Positions 22,690 through 32,423 of a stretch of DNA of 32,624 nt are shown piece after piece. Every line of letters begins with the position of its first letter. Position 1 is the stretch's first letter. The stretch is from Halobacteriales archaeon QS_5_70_17 (GTDB lineage Archaea; Halobacteriota; Halobacteria; Halobacteriales; Haloarculaceae). Made by a program: the position numbers and the translations under genes. The notes under the pieces are model-generated. The model worked only from the letters and a program-made list of their open reading frames with translations, did no database searches and was not told where the DNA came from. The stretch is from the NCBI GenBank assembly GCA_003021975.1, contig PXRR01000044.1:4410-37033 (forward strand), given 5' to 3'.

Positions 22690-24036
22690 TCAGGGGCCCA
22701 CCAGCCCGACGGCATACGCGAGCGCCGCGGCGATGACCGCGGCGGCGCTCGTCGCGGCGAAGTTGACGCCCTTGTTGTAGAGGTACGTCCCCTCGACGGT
22801 CGCCCCGAGGAGGCTGTCGACGGTCATGCCGCCGAGCCCGGCGGCGACGATCACCAGTCCGCCGACCGCTCCGAGCGGGAAGAACGCGAGCGCGATCAGG
22901 GCGACGACGGCCGCCCCCGCCGCCCCGGCGAGTTCCCCCTGCCAGGTGACCCCGCCGTCGGTTCCCGGGGGGACCCGCTGGAAGGTCGTGATCAGGCGGG
23001 TGTTGTCGTAGAGGCCGCCGATCTCGCTGGAGAGGGTGTCGCTCATCGCGGCCGCGACCGATCCGGCGAAGGCGTACAGGAACAGCCCCTCGGGCAGGCC
23101 GACCATCGGGCTGGCCGCCGCACCGACCAGGGCAGCCAGCGCCGCCGCCGAGTTGGCGATCACGTTGCCGCTGCCGCGCGCACCCTCGTTGTCCTCTGCG
23201 ATCCCCCGCTCGCGTTTCTCCTCGTAGCGGAACTTCGTCGAGAGCCCGCCGACGACGAAAAACGAGATCAGGACGGCGAACCAGCCGTAGTCCCCGAGGA
23301 CGACCGTGAGCAGGGCCAGCAGCACGCCGGTGAGCATCCCGGGGATCGAGGCCGTCTCGAGAGCGTAGGAGAGATAGCCCAGCACGGCGACCAGACCGAG
23401 GGCGACGGCGACCTGGGTCGCCGACGCCTCGACTGGGAGTTCGGTGAACAGCCAGAGCACCAGCGCGACCGAGACCATCACCAGCGGGTCGTCGCGCTCG
23501 AACAGCAGCGACCGGAGCAGCGCCGCCAGGAGGGCGCCGGCGGCGGCCAGGAAGACGACCCGCGAGAGCGAGAGCGGGACGGAACCGCCCGCGAGCGCGG
23601 CGCTGGCGAGCAACCCTCCCAGTCCGGCGGCGGTGCCGCCGAGAGAGAACGCTACGACGCCGGCGAACTCGTCGCCGACAGCCGCCAGCGCGGCCTTCTG
23701 AGCGAGGTCGCCGTACCCGACGACGACCGTGCCGGCGACGAACGCGCCGACGGGCATCCCGAACCGGAGCGCGACCAGCGCCAGGCCGGCGGCCGCGAGC
23801 GCGAACCCCGCGAGCCCGTAGAGCCGGCCCTCCTCGAAGTCGCCCGGGCGAGCGAACAACTCGAAGATCGGCCCGTCGTCGACGCCGACGAGCGCGAACG
23901 CCGCGAGCGCCGCGAACGGGGCCGCGGCGACGACGGCGGCGACCGCCGGCGCCGCTCGCCCCTGGACTGCGGGAGCGACGAGCGAGAGCGTGGAGACGGC
24001 GGCGAACGCACCCGCCCGTCGGACCGTGTGAGACAC
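22690..24036 (-). CDS. DUF92/TMEM19-like polytopic membrane protein
   Basis: A 448-residue protein with about twelve hydrophobic segments. The C-terminal two-thirds carry the DUF92 hallmarks: TKFRYEEKRERGIAEDNEG, ARGSGNVIANS, AAMSDTLSSEIG and GTDGGVTWQGE, ending NKGVNFAATS. Plant VTE6 of this family is a phytyl-phosphate kinase, so an archaeal role in phosphorylating an isoprenoid alcohol monophosphate is a reasonable hypothesis; the N-terminal third resembles the membrane fold of CTP-dependent dolichol/phytol kinases. The start is a GTG at 24036, with TATA-like ATTAAGT on the reverse strand about 25-31 bases ahead, so the message should be leaderless. Its first 11 bases and promoter recur inverted at the very end of the window. 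Confidence 0.84.
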   Translation of the reverse strand: MSHTVRRAGAFAAVSTLSLVAPAVQGRAAPAVAAVVAAAPFAALAAFALVGVDDGPIFELFARPGDFEEGRLYGLAGFALAAAGLALVALRFGMPVGAFVAGTVVVGYGDLAQKAALAAVGDEFAGVVAFSLGGTAAGLGGLLASAALAGGSVPLSLSRVVFLAAAGALLAALLRSLLFERDDPLVMVSVALVLWLFTELPVEASATQVAVALGLVAVLGYLSYALETASIPGMLTGVLLALLTVVLGDYGWFAVLISFFVVGGLSTKFRYEEKRERGIAEDNEGARGSGNVIANSAAALAALVGAAASPMVGLPEGLFLYAFAGSVAAAMSDTLSSEIGGLYDNTRLITTFQRVPPGTDGGVTWQGELAGAAGAAVVALIALAFFPLGAVGGLVIVAAGLGGMTVDSLLGATVEGTYLYNKGVNFAATSAAAVIAAALAYAVGLVGP

Positions 24037-25041: not shown

Positions 25042-25650
25042 GTGGGACTGTACGACCGCTATCTGGCCGCCCGCATCCGGCGGAACGACGCCGACCCGCC
25101 CCGGACTATCGCGCTCGTGATCACCGAGCGCGACCTGCTCGAACAGGACGCCTACGACCGACTGGAGGCGTTCCTCCGGTGGGCGTTCGACGGCGGCGCC
25201 GAGCGGGTCATGGTCTACGTCTCCGTGCTCGACGAGGCCGCGGTGCCGACGCTGCGCCGGACGCTCGCGGAGATCGACTCCCCCCGACCGCTGGCGGTCC
25301 GGGGTCCCGACGACGACGAGCGCGCCGACGCCCCCGTCCAGGTGAGCATCGGGCTGGGCGGGAAGGCGGAGTTCGCGAGCGCGGTCCGGAGCGTCGCCGA
25401 GGACGTCGAGGACGGCGAACTCTCCAGCGACGACCTCTCGGAGAGCGACATCGAGGCCGGACTGGTCTTCCCGACGGCGCCGGACCTCGTGATCAAGACC
25501 GGCGCCGAGCGGCTCTCGGATTTCATGATCTGGCAGTCGGTCTACTCGGAGCTGTACTTCACTGACGTCAACTGGCGGGACTTCCGCAAGCGGGACTTCC
25601 TCCGGGCGGTCAGGGACTACCAGGACCGCCAGCGGCGGTTCGGACGGTGA
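25042..25650 (+). CDS. Cis-prenyltransferase homologue lacking DGNRR, keeping C-terminal RxG (NgBR-like)
   Basis: A 202-residue member of the undecaprenyl-diphosphate synthase fold, clearest at DLVIKTGAERLSDFMIWQ and SELYFTDVNWRDF, which align with bacterial UppS regions. The N-terminal catalytic block is gone: where DGNRR belongs the sequence reads ALVITERDLL, and RTGGE has become KTGAE. The C-terminus RDYQDRQRRFGR keeps the RxG motif (199-201) that other subunits need for activity. This is the pattern of the non-catalytic subunit NgBR/Nus1 in eukaryotic dolichol synthesis. A DGNRR-bearing partner lacking RxG is encoded at 26613-27536. The start is a GTG at 25042 with a TATA-like GATACTTAC at 25007-25015, 27 bases ahead, so leaderless. 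It may therefore be the accessory subunit of a two-part enzyme making the polyprenyl carrier. Confidence 0.85.
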   Translation: MGLYDRYLAARIRRNDADPPRTIALVITERDLLEQDAYDRLEAFLRWAFDGGAERVMVYVSVLDEAAVPTLRRTLAEIDSPRPLAVRGPDDDERADAPVQVSIGLGGKAEFASAVRSVAEDVEDGELSSDDLSESDIEAGLVFPTAPDLVIKTGAERLSDFMIWQSVYSELYFTDVNWRDFRKRDFLRAVRDYQDRQRRFGR

Positions 25651-25746
25651 ACGGCGGCCGTCGACCGGTGTCCGCCACCGCGCCGGGGATTCCGGTCCGG
25701 ACGCGGACTGGTACGATTTACGTGCCGGCTGGCGTTACCCCGAGGT

Positions 25747-26616
25747 ATGACCGGGACGACGATCCGCACGCTCCGCGAGAAGTACGACGCCGGCGAGCCG
25801 CTGACCATGCTGACGGCTTACGACGCGCCGATCGCCCGGCTCGTCGACGAGGGCGGGGTGGACATGATCCTCGTCGGGGACAGCGCGGGCCACAACCACC
25901 TCGGCTACGGGGACACGCTCCCCGTGACCCTCGAGGAGGCGCTCTCGAACACCGGTGCCGTGGCCCGCGCGGCCGACGACGCGCTGGTGATCGGCGACCT
26001 CCCCTTTCTCACCTACGGCGCCTCCCTCGAGCAGTCGGTCGAGAACGCCGGTCGCTTCCTGAAAGAGGCGGGCGCGGACGCGGTGAAACTCGAGACCGCT
26101 CCCGGGGGGGAGACCACGATCGAGCTCGTCGAGCGGCTGGTCGAACTCGGCATCCCCGTCCAGGGCCACGTCGGGCTGACGCCCCAGCGCATGAACGAGA
26201 TGGGCGGGGCCGTCATCCAGGGTCGGGAGGGGCCGGAGTCGGCGTTCGCGGACGAACTCGTCGATACCGCCCGCCGGCTGGCCGACGCGGGCGTGTTCAC
26301 GCTCGTCCTCGAGGGGATCACCGAACCGGTCGCCAAGCGCGTCACCGAGGCCGTCGACGTCCCGACGATCGGCATCGGGGCCGGGCGGTACGTCGACGGT
26401 CAGGTGCTCGTGATCAACGACGTGCTCGGGCTCGGCGGCGAGGGCTACAGGCTCTCGAAGCAGTACGCCGACCTGGACGGCGTGATCGCCGGGGCCGTCG
26501 AGTCGTACGTCTCGGACGTCGAGAGCGGCGCCTTCCCGACCGAGGAGAACATCTACGAGCCGATCGACGACGGCGGGACGGATGCGGGGGCCGATCGCGG
26601 CGCGGACGAGGACTAG
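25747..26616 (+). CDS. panB: 3-methyl-2-oxobutanoate hydroxymethyltransferase (ketopantoate synthesis)
   Basis: A 289-residue PanB, adding a hydroxymethyl group from methylene-tetrahydrofolate or the archaeal equivalent to 2-oxoisovalerate, the first step to pantothenate and coenzyme A. The TIM-barrel motifs are complete: LTAYDAPIARLVDEGGVD, MILVGDSAGHNHLGY (metal Asp), VIGDLPFLTYG, AVKLE, QGHVGLTPQ, TLVLEGI (catalytic Glu) and TIGIGAGRYVDGQVLV. An acidic tail of about 25 residues is a haloarchaeal addition. ATG at 25747 with a TATA-like GATTTACG about 30 bases ahead. Its stop and that of the convergent uppS share the four bases CTAG. It lies between two cis-prenyltransferase homologues with no evident metabolic link. 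Confidence 0.95.
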   Translation: MTGTTIRTLREKYDAGEPLTMLTAYDAPIARLVDEGGVDMILVGDSAGHNHLGYGDTLPVTLEEALSNTGAVARAADDALVIGDLPFLTYGASLEQSVENAGRFLKEAGADAVKLETAPGGETTIELVERLVELGIPVQGHVGLTPQRMNEMGGAVIQGREGPESAFADELVDTARRLADAGVFTLVLEGITEPVAKRVTEAVDVPTIGIGAGRYVDGQVLVINDVLGLGGEGYRLSKQYADLDGVIAGAVESYVSDVESGAFPTEENIYEPIDDGGTDAGADRGADED

Positions 26617-27536
26617 TCGGCGGCGGGTTCGGGGAGTTCCTCGTCGACGCGGTCGATGGGTTCGATCTCCAGTTCCGGGAGGTCCCCGACGTTCTCGCGG
26701 AGGCGGCGCACCAGCCCCCCGTCGGCGCCGACGGCGCCGACGAGCGCGAGCGCGCGCTCGGCGCGGGTCCGCTGCCAGGACTGCTGGCGGGACTGGTAGG
26801 TGCGGATCGCCCGCAGGAAGTCCACCCGGGAGAACTCCGGCCAGTAGGGCGCGCAGAAGAAGACGGCGGCCTCGTTGCCGTTGGCGTGCCACGGCAGGAA
26901 GTTCGAGGTGCGTTCGTCGCCGCCCGTCCGGATGATCAGGTCGACGTCCCGCGGCGGGCGCTCTGCGAGGTGCTCCTCGACGGTGTCGACGTCGACGTCC
27001 TCGCTCGTCAGGTCGTCGGCCTCGACCGCGGCGGCGACCTTCCGGGCGGCGTCGAGCAGTTCCGCCCGACCGCCGTACGCGAGCGCGACGTTGAGCCGCT
27101 GGGCCTCGTACCCCTCCGTCCGCCGCTCGGCGTAGTCGACGGCCTCCCGGACCCGCTCGGGGAGCTGCTCGAGCTGTCCGATCGCGCGGATGCGGACTTC
27201 CTCCTCGTGTACGCTCGGCTCGTCGGCGAACTCGTAGAGCTTCCGCTCGATGAGGTCGAACAGCTCCTCGCGCTCCGCTGGCGGTCGATCGAAGTTCTCC
27301 GTCGAGAAGGCGTACAGCGTCAGTTCCCGGACGCCCAGTTCCGCACACCAGTCGAGGATCTCCTCGGTCGTTCGCGCGCCCTCGCGGTGGCCCGACGCCG
27401 TGTCGTCGCCGCGCTGCTGGGCGTACCGCCGGTTCCCGTCCTGTATCACCGCGACGTGGTCCGGAGCGCCGTCGACCTCTCGCTCGAGAACCCGCTCGTA
27501 GACCCCGTGTGCCAGCCGCTGCAACCGCCGTGCCAT
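26613..27536 (-). CDS. uppS: Cis-prenyltransferase (undecaprenyl-diphosphate synthase family), catalytic type
   Basis: A 307-residue long-form cis-prenyltransferase making the C50-60 polyprenyl-diphosphate carrier for glycan assembly. DHVAVIQDGNRRYAQ has the catalytic Asp33 and Arg36/37; TLYAFSTENFDRP, NVALAYGGRAEL and IIRTGGDERTSNFLPW (203-216) are also intact. The C-terminal part differs from bacterial enzymes: after LRAIRTYQSRQQSWQRTRAE there is no RxG motif, and a further 50 residues rich in acidic residues follow. Eukaryotic DHDDS likewise lacks RxG and depends on NgBR to supply it; here a homologue with RxG but no DGNRR lies 1 kb away. Start ATG 27536. Substrate chain length is inferred only from lineage. 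Confidence 0.93.
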   Translation of the reverse strand: MARRLQRLAHGVYERVLEREVDGAPDHVAVIQDGNRRYAQQRGDDTASGHREGARTTEEILDWCAELGVRELTLYAFSTENFDRPPAEREELFDLIERKLYEFADEPSVHEEEVRIRAIGQLEQLPERVREAVDYAERRTEGYEAQRLNVALAYGGRAELLDAARKVAAAVEADDLTSEDVDVDTVEEHLAERPPRDVDLIIRTGGDERTSNFLPWHANGNEAAVFFCAPYWPEFSRVDFLRAIRTYQSRQQSWQRTRAERALALVGAVGADGGLVRRLRENVGDLPELEIEPIDRVDEELPEPAAD

Positions 27537-29322: not shown

Positions 29323-30450
29323 ATGAGTACGACCGCGGAGCTAGACCGGGTCGACCGGGCGATCGTCAACGCGTTCCAGGGAGGGTTCCCGGTCGCCCGG
29401 CAGCCCTTCGAACCGGCCGCGGCCGCGCTCCGCGAGCGCGGCGTCGGCGTCTCCGCGGACGACCTCCTCGCGCGCGTTCGCGAGATGGACGAGGCGGGGA
29501 CGCTCTCGCGGTTCGGCGCGCTGGTCGACGCCGAGGCCATCGGCGGCACCGCGACCCTCGTCGCGATGCACGCCCCCGAGGACCGGTTCGACGAGGTCGC
29601 AGAGCGGGTCAACGCCCACCGGGAGGTCGCGCACAACTACGAGCGCGAGCACCCCCACCTGAACATGTGGTTCGTCGTCAGCGTCGCCGACCCCGAGGAG
29701 GTCGGGCGCGTGCTCGACGACATCGAGCGGGAGACGGGTCAGGAGACGTACAACCTGCCGAAGGTCGACGAGTTCCGCGTCGAGGCGAAGTTCCTCCTCG
29801 ACGGGCCCGTCCCCGACGGCGACGTCGACTGCTCGGGGGCGGGACCGGACGTCGCTCCCGTCGAGCGCGACGCGCTGACGCCCGCCGAGCGCGACCTCGT
29901 CGTCGAGATCCAGGACGGCCTCCCGGTCACCGAGACGCCGTACGCCGACGTCGCCGAGGCGATCGGCCGCGACCCGGAGTGGGTCGTCCGAACGATCGAG
30001 CGCTTCGACCGCGAGGGGAAGGTCCGACGCGTCGGCGTGATCCCCAACCACTACGCGCTGGGCTACACCGAGAACGGCATGACCGTCTGGGACGTCCCCG
30101 ACGGCGTCGTAGGCGAGGTCGGACCCGCGGTGGCGAGCCTGGATTTCGTCACCCACTGTTACCGGCGGCCGCGTCACGAGGGCGTCTGGCCGTACAACTT
30201 CTTCGCAATGACCCACGGGCGCACCGAAGACGAGTCCCGCGAGCGCATCCGGCGGGTCCGCGAGACCATGGCGGAGTTCTGGTCGGTCGGCGAGGACGAC
30301 TGGGACACGCTGTTCTCGACGCGGATCCTCAAGAAGACGGGCATCCGAATCGGAGAGCGCGCCGCGGCGAACACCGCCGACGGCGAGGGCGACCCCGAGG
30401 ACATAGACGGCGGCCCCCCGGGCGCGAACGCGGACGCGACCCCCGAGTGA
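29323..30450 (+). CDS. ahbAB: Fused siroheme decarboxylase AhbA-AhbB (Lrp/AsnC-like double domain)
   Basis: A 375-residue protein with two Lrp/AsnC-like halves: each begins with a winged helix (DRVDRAIVNAFQGGFPV; AERDLVVEIQDGLPVTETPY) and continues to a RAM-like domain (NYEREHPHLNMWFVV; HCYRRPRHEGVWPYNFFAM). The family is known as siroheme decarboxylase, often two proteins AhbA and AhbB, which removes two acetate carboxyls from siroheme to give 12,18-didecarboxysiroheme in the alternative archaeal heme pathway. The His/Arg-rich RRPRH and WPYN stretch is typical of the active site. The downstream genes, precorrin-2 dehydrogenase and HemA, belong to the same route, so this is a heme operon. The fusion looks real: the two halves join without a stop. 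A short acidic tail ends at 30450. Confidence 0.9.
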   Translation: MSTTAELDRVDRAIVNAFQGGFPVARQPFEPAAAALRERGVGVSADDLLARVREMDEAGTLSRFGALVDAEAIGGTATLVAMHAPEDRFDEVAERVNAHREVAHNYEREHPHLNMWFVVSVADPEEVGRVLDDIERETGQETYNLPKVDEFRVEAKFLLDGPVPDGDVDCSGAGPDVAPVERDALTPAERDLVVEIQDGLPVTETPYADVAEAIGRDPEWVVRTIERFDREGKVRRVGVIPNHYALGYTENGMTVWDVPDGVVGEVGPAVASLDFVTHCYRRPRHEGVWPYNFFAMTHGRTEDESRERIRRVRETMAEFWSVGEDDWDTLFSTRILKKTGIRIGERAAANTADGEGDPEDIDGGPPGANADATPE

Positions 30451-30508: not shown

Positions 30509-31068
30509 GTGCAACCGCTGCTCCACGACTTCGAGGGCGAGCGCGTGCTCGTGTTCGGCGGCGGGCGGGTCGGCGCGGTTGCAGAGCGTCCCGCGCTCGT
30601 CGGCGGCCGCGGCGACGGCGTCGTTGACGTCGCCGTCGTCGGTCGCGGCGACGACCAGCGCCGGGGCGACCCGGTCGAGCCACCCGGCGACCGCGTCGGG
30701 GCCGGGGGCTGCCCGGACCTGACCGCGCCGACCACTCGGGCGCGCGTGACCCGGGGCGGGTCGCGGTCCCGTCGACGGTCCGTGAGGGGCCGGTCGTCGT
30801 CGGCATCTCGACGGGCGCTCCGGCGCTCACCCGGGTCCTCCGCCAGCGGATCGAGGAGACCGTCCGGGCGGCCGGCGAACTGGCGCCGCTGGTCGGACGG
30901 CTCCGCGGGCGACTCGACGGCCTCCCTGCGGACCGGCGCCGCGCCGTCCTCCGTCGGGTGGTCCGGTCGGACCGCGTTTGGAAGGCTTTAGGTTCCGGAA
31001 CCACTAATCCGGAGCAGACAGTGGACGAAATAGTCTCCGAGGAGCTCGGTGAGGACAGACAATGGTAG
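30509..31068 (+). pseudogene. cysG: Precorrin-2 dehydrogenase / siroheme synthase N-type, scrambled by an internal inversion and a deletion
   Basis: The GTG at 30509 opens HDFEGERVLVFGGGRVGA, the NAD-binding start of the dehydrogenase that makes sirohydrochlorin (CysG N-half/Met8 type). The next 140 bases make no sense forward, but their reverse complement encodes the missing middle, including VAGWLDRVAPALVVAATDD and NDAVAAAADERGTLCNRAD. From 30723 on, DHSGARDPGRVAVPSTVREG and the helical C-terminus are again forward and run in one frame to a TAG at 31066-31068, overlapping the hemA start by seven bases. Turning the middle back restores the CNRAD-HSGARD join in frame. The left join is still off frame and lacks the RKARRF-type stretch and about 28-30 residues, roughly 85-90 bp. 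It is non-functional as written; without it the pathway from HemA products to AhbAB would be blocked. Confidence 0.86.
30568..30733. repeat. 12-bp perfect inverted repeat bounding the inverted cysG segment
   Basis: GGTCGGCGCGGT at 30568-30579 and ACCGCGCCGACC at 30722-30733 are exact reverse complements and enclose 142 bp (30580-30721) that read correctly only on the opposite strand. The left copy follows from the VGA codons, the right from the NRAD codons of an ordinary gene of this family, so the repeat probably pre-existed by chance and served as the site of exchange. Confidence 0.8.
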
Positions 31069-32370
31069 GCACGGGCGTCGTCACGGGGATCAGCATCGCT
31101 CACGAGCGTGCGGACCTTGCCACCATCGAAGCCGCCTGCGCCGACGGGCAGGCCGGCGTCGTCCGTTCGCTGCTCGCGGACGCGGCAGTCACCGAGGCCT
31201 TCGCCCTCCAGACGTGCAACCGCGCGGAGGCGTACGTCGTCGCCGAGGACGGCGAGGCCGGCCGCGCGGCCCTCGAGCCGCTCGTCGCCGGCGTCGAGGA
31301 GTCCGCGGTCCGGTGGCTCGGCCACGAGGAGGGGCTACGCCACCTGATGCGGGTCGCCTGCGGGCTGGAGTCGATCGTCGTCGGCGAGGACCAGATCCTC
31401 GGGCAGGTGCGCGACGCCTACGTCGAGGCCCGCGACGTCGGCGGGATCGGGCCGGTCTTCGAGGACGCCGTCACGAAGGCGATCCACGTCGGCGAGCGGG
31501 CCCGCACCGAAACCGCGATCAACGAGGGGGCGACCTCGCTGGGCAGCGCGGCCGCCGACGTGGCGGCCCTCGAGGTGGCCCTGGAGTCGGCGACGGCACT
31601 GGTCGTCGGCACCGGCGAGATGGGCACGCTCGCCGCCCGCGCGCTCGCCGACCGGGTCGATCACCTCGTCGTCGCCAACCGGACGCTCCGGAGCGCGCGC
31701 CACGTCGCCGAGACGCTCTCCGGCGACGGCCTCGAAACCAGCGCCGTCGGCCTGGGGGCGCTCCCGACGGTGCTGGCCTGGGCGGACGTCGCCGTCACCG
31801 CGACCGGCGCCGAGGACCCCGTCGTCGACGCCGGCGACGTCGCGACCGCCGGCGAGACCGTCCTGATCGACATCGCCCGGCCGCGGGACGTCGACCCCGC
31901 GACCGACGACGTCGACGGGGGCACCGTCCGCGGTCGAGGCGATGATCGACCGGGAGTTCGATCGCCTCATCTCCCAGTTCAAGCGCAAGCGCGCCGACGA
32001 GGTCATCAGCGCGATGTACGAGTCCGCCGAGCGGACCAAGCGCCGCGAGGTCGGGCGCGCGCTGTCGAAACTCGAGGCCGACGACCTGACCGACGACCAG
32101 CGCGAGACCGTCGAGGCGATGGCCGACGCGCTGGTCGGTCAGTTGCTCGCCGCACCGACGAAGAGCCTCCGGGACGCCGCCGAGCGCGACGATTGGTCGA
32201 CGATCAACACCGCGATCCGGCTGTTCGATCCCCACGGCGGCGCCGGCGGGGCCGACGGGTCGGTGCCCAACGAGATCCCCGACCTGGAAGAGGCCGGCCC
32301 CGAGGACGTCCCCGAGGGGGTCCGCGACGCGATGCCCCAGGCGGTGCTCGACCGGATCGGGGAGGACTGA
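31062..32370 (+). pseudogene. hemA: Glutamyl-tRNA reductase HemA, frame-disrupted by a deletion
   Basis: The ATG at 31062 starts VTGISIAHERADLATIEAAC, followed by the catalytic-Cys region AFALQTCNRAEAYVV, then CGLESIVVGEDQILGQV and the NADPH domain ALVVGTGEMGTLAARALAD and DIARPRDVDPATDDVDGG. Near 31920-31935 the frame breaks. The C-terminal dimerisation domain, SAVEAMIDREFDRLISQFKR onwards, is in another frame from about 31929 and ends at 32370. Relatives have about 23 residues between VDG and VEAM, so about 70 bp appear to be missing; length is 1309 bp, not a multiple of three. HemA makes glutamate-1-semialdehyde from glutamyl-tRNA, the entry to all tetrapyrroles, and is the last gene of this heme operon. 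As sole HemA it would be essential, so an artefact must be considered. Confidence 0.88.
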
Positions 32371-32423
32371 CGGCCGGGGGCGGGTTTCAGTGACAGAGCC
32401 TCGTGAATGTGGCAGTACACTCG

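Follow-up and report, generated by a model that had tools for sequence, protein, structure and literature searches.

Heteromeric cis-prenyltransferases are known from eukaryotes (human DHDDS/NgBR and yeast Nus1/Rer2) and from Methanosarcina mazei, and a second archaeal heteromer has reportedly come from Archaeoglobus fulgidus. According to the available portion of PMC7573591, the C-terminal tail of NgBR crosses the interface of the human complex, where the backbone nitrogens of L291 and G292 bind the phosphate in the isopentenyl diphosphate (IPP) site and R290 lies between both sites. The M. mazei proteins MM_0618 and MM_1083 (Emi et al. 2019) form a heteromer with C45-50 products, as stated in the available part of PMC8131916. 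Here, we analyzed a pair of genes in a 32,624-nucleotide stretch of DNA (the window) from Halobacteriales archaeon QS_5_70_17 (contig PXRR01000044.1, positions 4,410 to 37,033). A preliminary description had proposed that they encode such a two-subunit enzyme and had pointed to heteromers reported in Methanosarcina; the window pair is orthologous by tree to methanosarcinal proteins (see below). Very probably, the two gene products are subunits of one heteromeric cis-prenyltransferase, and the polyprenyl diphosphate that it synthesizes is the precursor of a dolichol-type sugar carrier. Judged from the sequences, the pair is best placed, as the haloarchaeal representative, among the archaeal heteromeric cis-prenyltransferases; it is real, well conserved and largely expected.

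Both reading frames lie where they had been placed. The large gene (26613-27536, minus strand) encodes a 307-residue protein, the putative catalytic, DHDDS-like subunit, which matches PF01255 along the entire domain (E = 5.2e-70) as well as TIGR00055 (E = 4.8e-70) and contains QDGNRR and RTGGDERTSNFLPW. Its catalytic motif is D33-G-N-R-R37 (27426-27440), and its IPP pyrophosphate-binding motif is R203-TGGDERTS-N212 (26901-26930), in which R203, T204, G205, G206, E208, R209, S211 and N212 were invariant over 19 rows. At the position of the RxG motif, however, this protein has RQQSWQRTRAE / RTYQSRQQSWQRTRAE, followed by an extension of about 50 residues beyond the core (residues 259-307; 26616-26762) that also lacks RxG. 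The small gene (25042-25650, plus strand, GTG start) encodes a 202-residue protein, the putative NgBR-like subunit, which is presumed to be non-catalytic. The PF01255 match of this protein (E = 2.1e-26) covers residues 97-201 only. At the DGNRR position it has TERDLLE (ERDLLE being residues 29-34; 25126-25143), so that the catalytic motif is lost, and KTGAERLSDF occupies the place of RTGGExRxSNF. It carries Y168-S-E170 (YxE; 25543-25551), and its C-terminus, checked on the DNA, is DRQRRFGR followed by the stop codon, with R199-F-G201 (25636-25644) as the RxG motif.

The alignment comprised 48 small and 36 large proteins together with 21 one-piece enzymes, of which 9 were archaeal and 12 bacterial. 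Eighteen columns of the one-piece enzymes were kept by the large proteins and were lost or rare in the small ones, among them (large numbering) D33, G34, N35, R37, G49, H50, F77, S78, E80, N81 and R84. The D, G, N and R of D-G-N-x-R were present in 36/36 large and 21/21 one-piece proteins, whereas the 48 small proteins had D in 4, G in 2, and N and R in none. Six columns showed the opposite behavior (small numbering: P147, Y168, E170, R198, R199 and G201); they were kept in 48/48 small proteins and in the one-piece enzymes (21/21 for YxE and RxG). Among the 36 large proteins, P147, Y168 and E170 were never found, R198 was found in 7, and R199 (L083) and G201 (L063) in one each, never both together. 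Another eight columns were kept by all three groups. At the site of the lost YxE, which in the window is G220-N-E-A-A224 (26865-26879), 29/36 large proteins carried two inserted residues compared with bacterial UppS, and the position of E was occupied by A in 29 and by V, T, F, I or Y in 7. YxE (YTE in L207, YSE in L209 and L221) and RR[FY]G persisted even in the most strongly diverged of the small proteins read. The division of motifs that had been noticed in the window holds for both groups of proteins. On this alignment, the site residues are partitioned between two chains, which together would make up the one-piece set. The pair thereby resembles homodimeric one-piece UppS (bacteria, Thermococcus, Methanosphaera and Thermoplasmatota) in fold and, across both subunits, in site residues; it differs in that D-G-N-x-R and R-x-G are on one chain in 21/21 one-piece enzymes and on two chains in haloarchaea.

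A comparable partition is seen in the human proteins. The Protein Data Bank chain of NUS1 contains FLPWHIRLTE...EQRLGK and that of DHDDS contains FLLWQTSHSC...MNHSVLQ. When these chains were aligned by eye on FLxW, NUS1 kept RxG and the E of YxE, with L for Y, and DHDDS had C for E and no RxG, in line with the earlier statement on where RxG resides in the human pair. As in DHDDS/NgBR and Nus1/Rer2, the catalytic subunit of the haloarchaeal pair has DGNRR but no RxG; as in DHDDS/NgBR, its partner lacks the catalytic motif, ends in an R-x-G tail and retains the E of YxE. There are also differences. The small protein of the window has no N-terminal hydrophobic segment of the kind found in NgBR; it starts with MGLYDRYLAARIRRNDADPP, which is charged, its first model helix begins at residue 3, and a membrane anchor is absent. 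Unlike NUS1, it keeps K-T-G-A-E-R-x-S and Y168, and in a Foldseek search it was nearer to one-piece enzymes. On the other side, DHDDS has no insertion and C at the E position, whereas 29/36 large proteins have the insertion and A.

The model of the large protein (mean predicted local distance difference test score, pLDDT, 89.0) shares with DHDDS a C-terminal helical extension. It has a long last helix (237-269) followed by a short one (273-283), reminiscent of the helix-turn-helix by which DHDDS builds the tetramer of the human enzyme (PMC7573591). Foldseek aligned 291-296 columns of this model to human DHDDS chains, compared with 223-239 for the other matches listed. Because the root-mean-square deviation to the DHDDS chains was 7.8-9.1, a tetramer of the haloarchaeal enzyme is only a thought that this model allows.

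How the two proteins might work together can be proposed from DHDDS/NgBR and M. mazei. The small and large subunits would form a heterodimer resembling the UppS homodimer. The large subunit would bind the allylic diphosphate and IPP and carry out elongation, with D33, R37 and the RTGGxxRxS IPP site acting in cis. The RFG tail of the small subunit would cross the interface into the active site of the large one, as that of NgBR does for DHDDS; there, its backbone amides would bind the IPP phosphate and the tail arginine would organize the Mg/pyrophosphate site. E170 might belong to this trans-acting module as well. By itself, the small subunit would yield no product. As to the role in making a glycan carrier lipid, we infer that the polyprenyl diphosphate serves for dolichyl phosphate, given the family and the fact that this is the only PF01255 pair in the incomplete genome.

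Phylogenetic analysis of 108 proteins placed the small proteins in one clade (support 100/100) and the large proteins in another (100/98), and a second tree of 76 rows agreed. Each clade had haloarchaeal, methanosarcinal, methanomicrobial and Archaeoglobaceae-like members (family labels such as Archaeoglobaceae-like and Methanosarcinaceae-like are tentative), and both were separate from the one-piece enzymes of archaea and from MM_0014-like proteins of the kind discussed below. A Methanosarcina spelaei protein (L125) fell in the small clade. Because both clades include methanosarcinal members, the window proteins are, by their tree positions, orthologues of the methanosarcinal pairs, the link being made through a proxy genome (G400) and not through the M. 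mazei pair itself. The window small and large proteins are 35% and 47% identical, respectively, to the pair in G400. This genome has a third cis-prenyltransferase, which is similar to MM_0014 along the entire frame (2.7e-126), so the other two copies should correspond to MM_0618 and MM_1083. The likeness to MM_0618/MM_1083 thus comprises two PF01255 paralogues that are orthologous by tree and a proposed role in making a glycosyl carrier lipid. Placement of the small and large proteins in one clade was not rejected by the approximately unbiased (AU) test (p 0.382); their sisterhood is neither shown nor excluded.

Co-occurrence of the two genes, which had been suggested as a check, was found almost throughout. 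The source genome, whose assembly is 73% complete, has exactly these two PF01255 matches and no third. At least two matches were present in 291/292 Halobacteria genomes and in 385/390 Halobacteriota genomes, of which 103 are shared with the Halobacteria set. A search with the small protein gave a match in 292/292 Halobacteria genomes. Its cut-off might accept the paralogue too, and the weakest cases were therefore inspected: G218 and G286 have a strongly diverged small gene that was read directly (L207 and L209), and in G236 the small gene is fragmented at contig ends. Counts for the phylum are counts of matches; when a small-protein profile was searched in 70 genomes (64 outside Halobacteria), it matched in 68. 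No PF01255 match was detected in G298, G306 (family code f18) and G578, which are 91-95% complete; either these organisms make the carrier lipid in another way or the genes fall into assembly gaps.

It should be noted that several observations weigh against a heteromer. Two genomes, G072 (120 contigs; the only Halobacteria genome with a single PF01255 match) and G414 (80 contigs), have one match each, the small gene, and no large gene was found, although assembly gaps may explain this. Among the 50 Foldseek matches listed for the small model, there was no NgBR/NUS1 chain, whereas DHDDS chains were present. The literature searched contained no haloarchaeal complex, activity or product, a weak negative since subscription papers were outside its scope, and a term search of the available part of a Haloferax volcanii annotation review (PMC8305020) found no occurrence of UppS or dolichol. 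An Archaeoglobaceae-like large protein (L069, in G391) has the C-terminus RTWQVRRFGGQKYK with the RxG-like RRFGGQKYK; it was rejected as a large protein with an in-register RxG because RRFGG is shifted by two residues in the alignment from the register of the small tails. Moreover, a missing RxG alone would not prove the need of a partner. M. mazei MM_0014 works as a homodimer without RxG (PMC8131916); in the absence of its partner, DHDDS forms homodimers of weak activity, and in yeast Nus1 the R of RxG is replaced by N (both in PMC7573591).

These last examples raise the possibility that the large protein is a self-sufficient homodimer like MM_0014, with the small protein as an optional regulator or membrane adaptor. 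Proteins of the MM_0014/MA1831 type share with the large subunit the PF01255 domain and the absence of RxG, and the activity of MM_0014 and, to some extent, of DHDDS alone would fit such an arrangement; judged from the model, the long C-terminal extension of the haloarchaeal large protein could replace the tail. However, the three MM_0014-like proteins in the alignment retain D in the E170 column and G in the G201 column, whereas the large proteins have E or D in 0/36 and G in 1/36. The MM_0014 type also differs in being homodimeric, in ending with TLGG in the relatives inspected and in forming a separate long-branch clade, and a third PF01255 match that might represent it is absent from the source genome. 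If the small protein were an optional regulator, conservation of Y168, E170, R198, R199 and G201 in 48/48 proteins amid divergence elsewhere would hardly be expected. We therefore regard a self-sufficient large protein as improbable.

Alternatively, the small protein could act independently of the large one, e.g., in binding a prenyl diphosphate or in another prenyl transfer. Haloarchaeal small proteins retain a partial IPP-site motif, K152-T-G-A-E-R157-x-S159, and because of this they may still bind a phosphate group. The near-complete loss of the DGNxR columns in the 48 small proteins, given above, speaks against a separate function, and so do the diverged proteins L207 and L221, which have lost the TG motif yet keep the tail; this explanation is very improbable, even less likely than a self-sufficient large protein. 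The preliminary description had also assigned the UppS fold to the small protein. This stands by sequence for the C-terminal half (residues 97-201), whereas the whole fold is predicted by an AlphaFold2 model only (mean pLDDT 85.7; predicted template-modelling score 0.83). All 50 Foldseek matches listed for this model were cis-prenyltransferases, with template-modelling scores to the query of 0.62-0.75. Some caution is due in reading this fold prediction, as 10/46 rows of the alignment behind the model were one-piece enzymes. Some small proteins are longer than the 202 residues of that in the window: L222 (in G072) and L143 and L149 (Halorubrum) have 217-226 residues, and in L222 the additional residues directly precede a VGLGGK stretch.

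The arrangement of the two genes was also conserved. For haloarchaea, we used the best 150 genomes of the small search and the best 147 of the large search; the 62 genomes present in both are best-scoring and not a random sample. The pair was convergent within 5 kb in 48/62 genomes, including the source genome, and within 20 kb in 51/62. Up to 20 kb only convergent pairs were found, and one same-strand pair occurred at 20.8 kb; in 11/62 genomes, the two genes were farther apart or on separate contigs. Outside Halobacteria, 21/59 pairs lay within 5 kb, all 21 of them convergent and from 11 families by code. Three more were at intermediate distances (G407, convergent, 10 kb; G396, same strand, 9 kb; G410, divergent, 8 kb), and the other 35/59 were farther off or on different contigs. 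The haloarchaeal genes, tail-to-tail and close in 48/62 genomes, differ in this respect from the methanosarcinal ones, which are far apart in all seven genomes of family f13 (tentatively Methanosarcinaceae); the same is true of the ten genomes of family f15. These counts do not represent independent events because the genomes are related. Preservation of the tail-to-tail order over such distances suggests an old arrangement, perhaps with a shared 3' region.

Within the window, the two genes are separated by panB (25747-26616, plus strand; PF02548, E = 1.4e-94), which encodes ketopantoate hydroxymethyltransferase and is not part of the enzyme. The panB stop overlaps the stop of the large gene by 4 bp. 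Although panB had been correctly located between the two genes, among the 62 loci scanned it occupied this place only at the loci of the source genome itself (L001, L002 and L033). Around the gene pair, a search for inverted repeats found only GC-rich, chance-like arms.

The heteromer had been called ancestral-type. This label is not supported as far as sampled: a complete one-piece enzyme is encoded in nine genomes from other archaea (Thermococcus, Methanosphaera, Thermoplasmata and Methanomassiliicoccales), and most genomes of one other archaeal phylum (62/77, see below) have exactly one match. In 8/9 of them it is the only PF01255 match, and the remaining one, Methanomassiliicoccus G581, has three matches in two places. 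The heteromer interpretation itself is supported by the motif split, by co-occurrence and by orthology to the methanosarcinal pairs; its ancestral part is not.

We further examined the phylum of G581, Thermoplasmatota (77 genomes), in which 62 genomes had one PF01255 match, 7 had two, one had three and 7 had none. Matches in the 62 single-match genomes mostly reach the end of the family model. In five genomes (G629, G630, G645, G646 and G650; loci within L247-L258), a complete copy is accompanied by a second one that has DGNRR and lacks YxE and RxG. In these second copies, the Y position is N in four and H in one, and the E position is L in two, D in two and H in one; P147 is kept in 5/5 and the insertion is found in 0/5. 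The second match in G626 is merely 27 positions long, and the second protein in G654 is of a different kind. The five copies adjoin complete Thermoplasmatota copies in the tree, at two places. Their tree position and their residues (P147 kept, insertion absent) suggest that they arose independently of the Halobacteriota large proteins. However, AU tests did not reject a single clade of the second copies and the Halobacteriota large proteins (p 0.267), nor one clade of the five copies (p 0.208). From these sequences, the Thermoplasmatota copy pairs may be halfway along the same route to a split enzyme.

Neither YxE nor RxG is present in the large subunits of Halobacteriota, in human DHDDS or in the five Thermoplasmatota second copies. 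Their joint loss points to a candidate second residue in the trans-acting module. It is conceivable, if rather unlikely at present, that YxE and R-R-x-G form one such module and that heteromers arise repeatedly when one duplicate loses it and the sister later loses DGNRR. The Thermoplasmatota pairs would then be living intermediates, heteromers in which a complete chain joins a catalytic-only one, and in Halobacteriota the split would have been fixed early, often as a tail-to-tail pair. We lowered our confidence in this idea slightly because E is replaced by D in two of these five copies and because a common origin with the large proteins was not rejected. What is added here is the breadth of occurrence, the putative second residue of the trans-acting module, the conserved tail-to-tail pair and the half-split pairs of Thermoplasmatota. 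If the heteromer interpretation is true, nearly a whole archaeal phylum, including the haloarchaea that serve as N-glycosylation models, relies on a split enzyme for its sugar-carrier lipid, and the division of labor of the human disease-linked DHDDS/NgBR exists in a genetically tractable host. The Thermoplasmatota pairs would offer a view on how such a split begins.

A DUF92 membrane protein is encoded upstream of the small gene in divergent orientation (22690-24036, minus strand). Such a divergent upstream DUF92 gene was found in 8/30 loci with 2 kb of upstream sequence (L128, L133, L134, L135, L138, L139, L141 and L142); L136 and L148 also have DUF92 and were missed by this criterion since their open frames overlap the start of the small gene. 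The DUF92 family includes the plant phytyl-phosphate kinase VTE6, and for this reason the protein may act in the carrier-lipid pathway as a kinase of prenols or prenyl phosphates. Farther downstream, a gene at 29323-30450 (plus strand) encodes a single 375-residue chain that matches siroheme decarboxylase AhbA (residues 11-157) and AhbB (residues 192-343). This fused AhbA-AhbB gene lies upstream of hemA (31062-32393).

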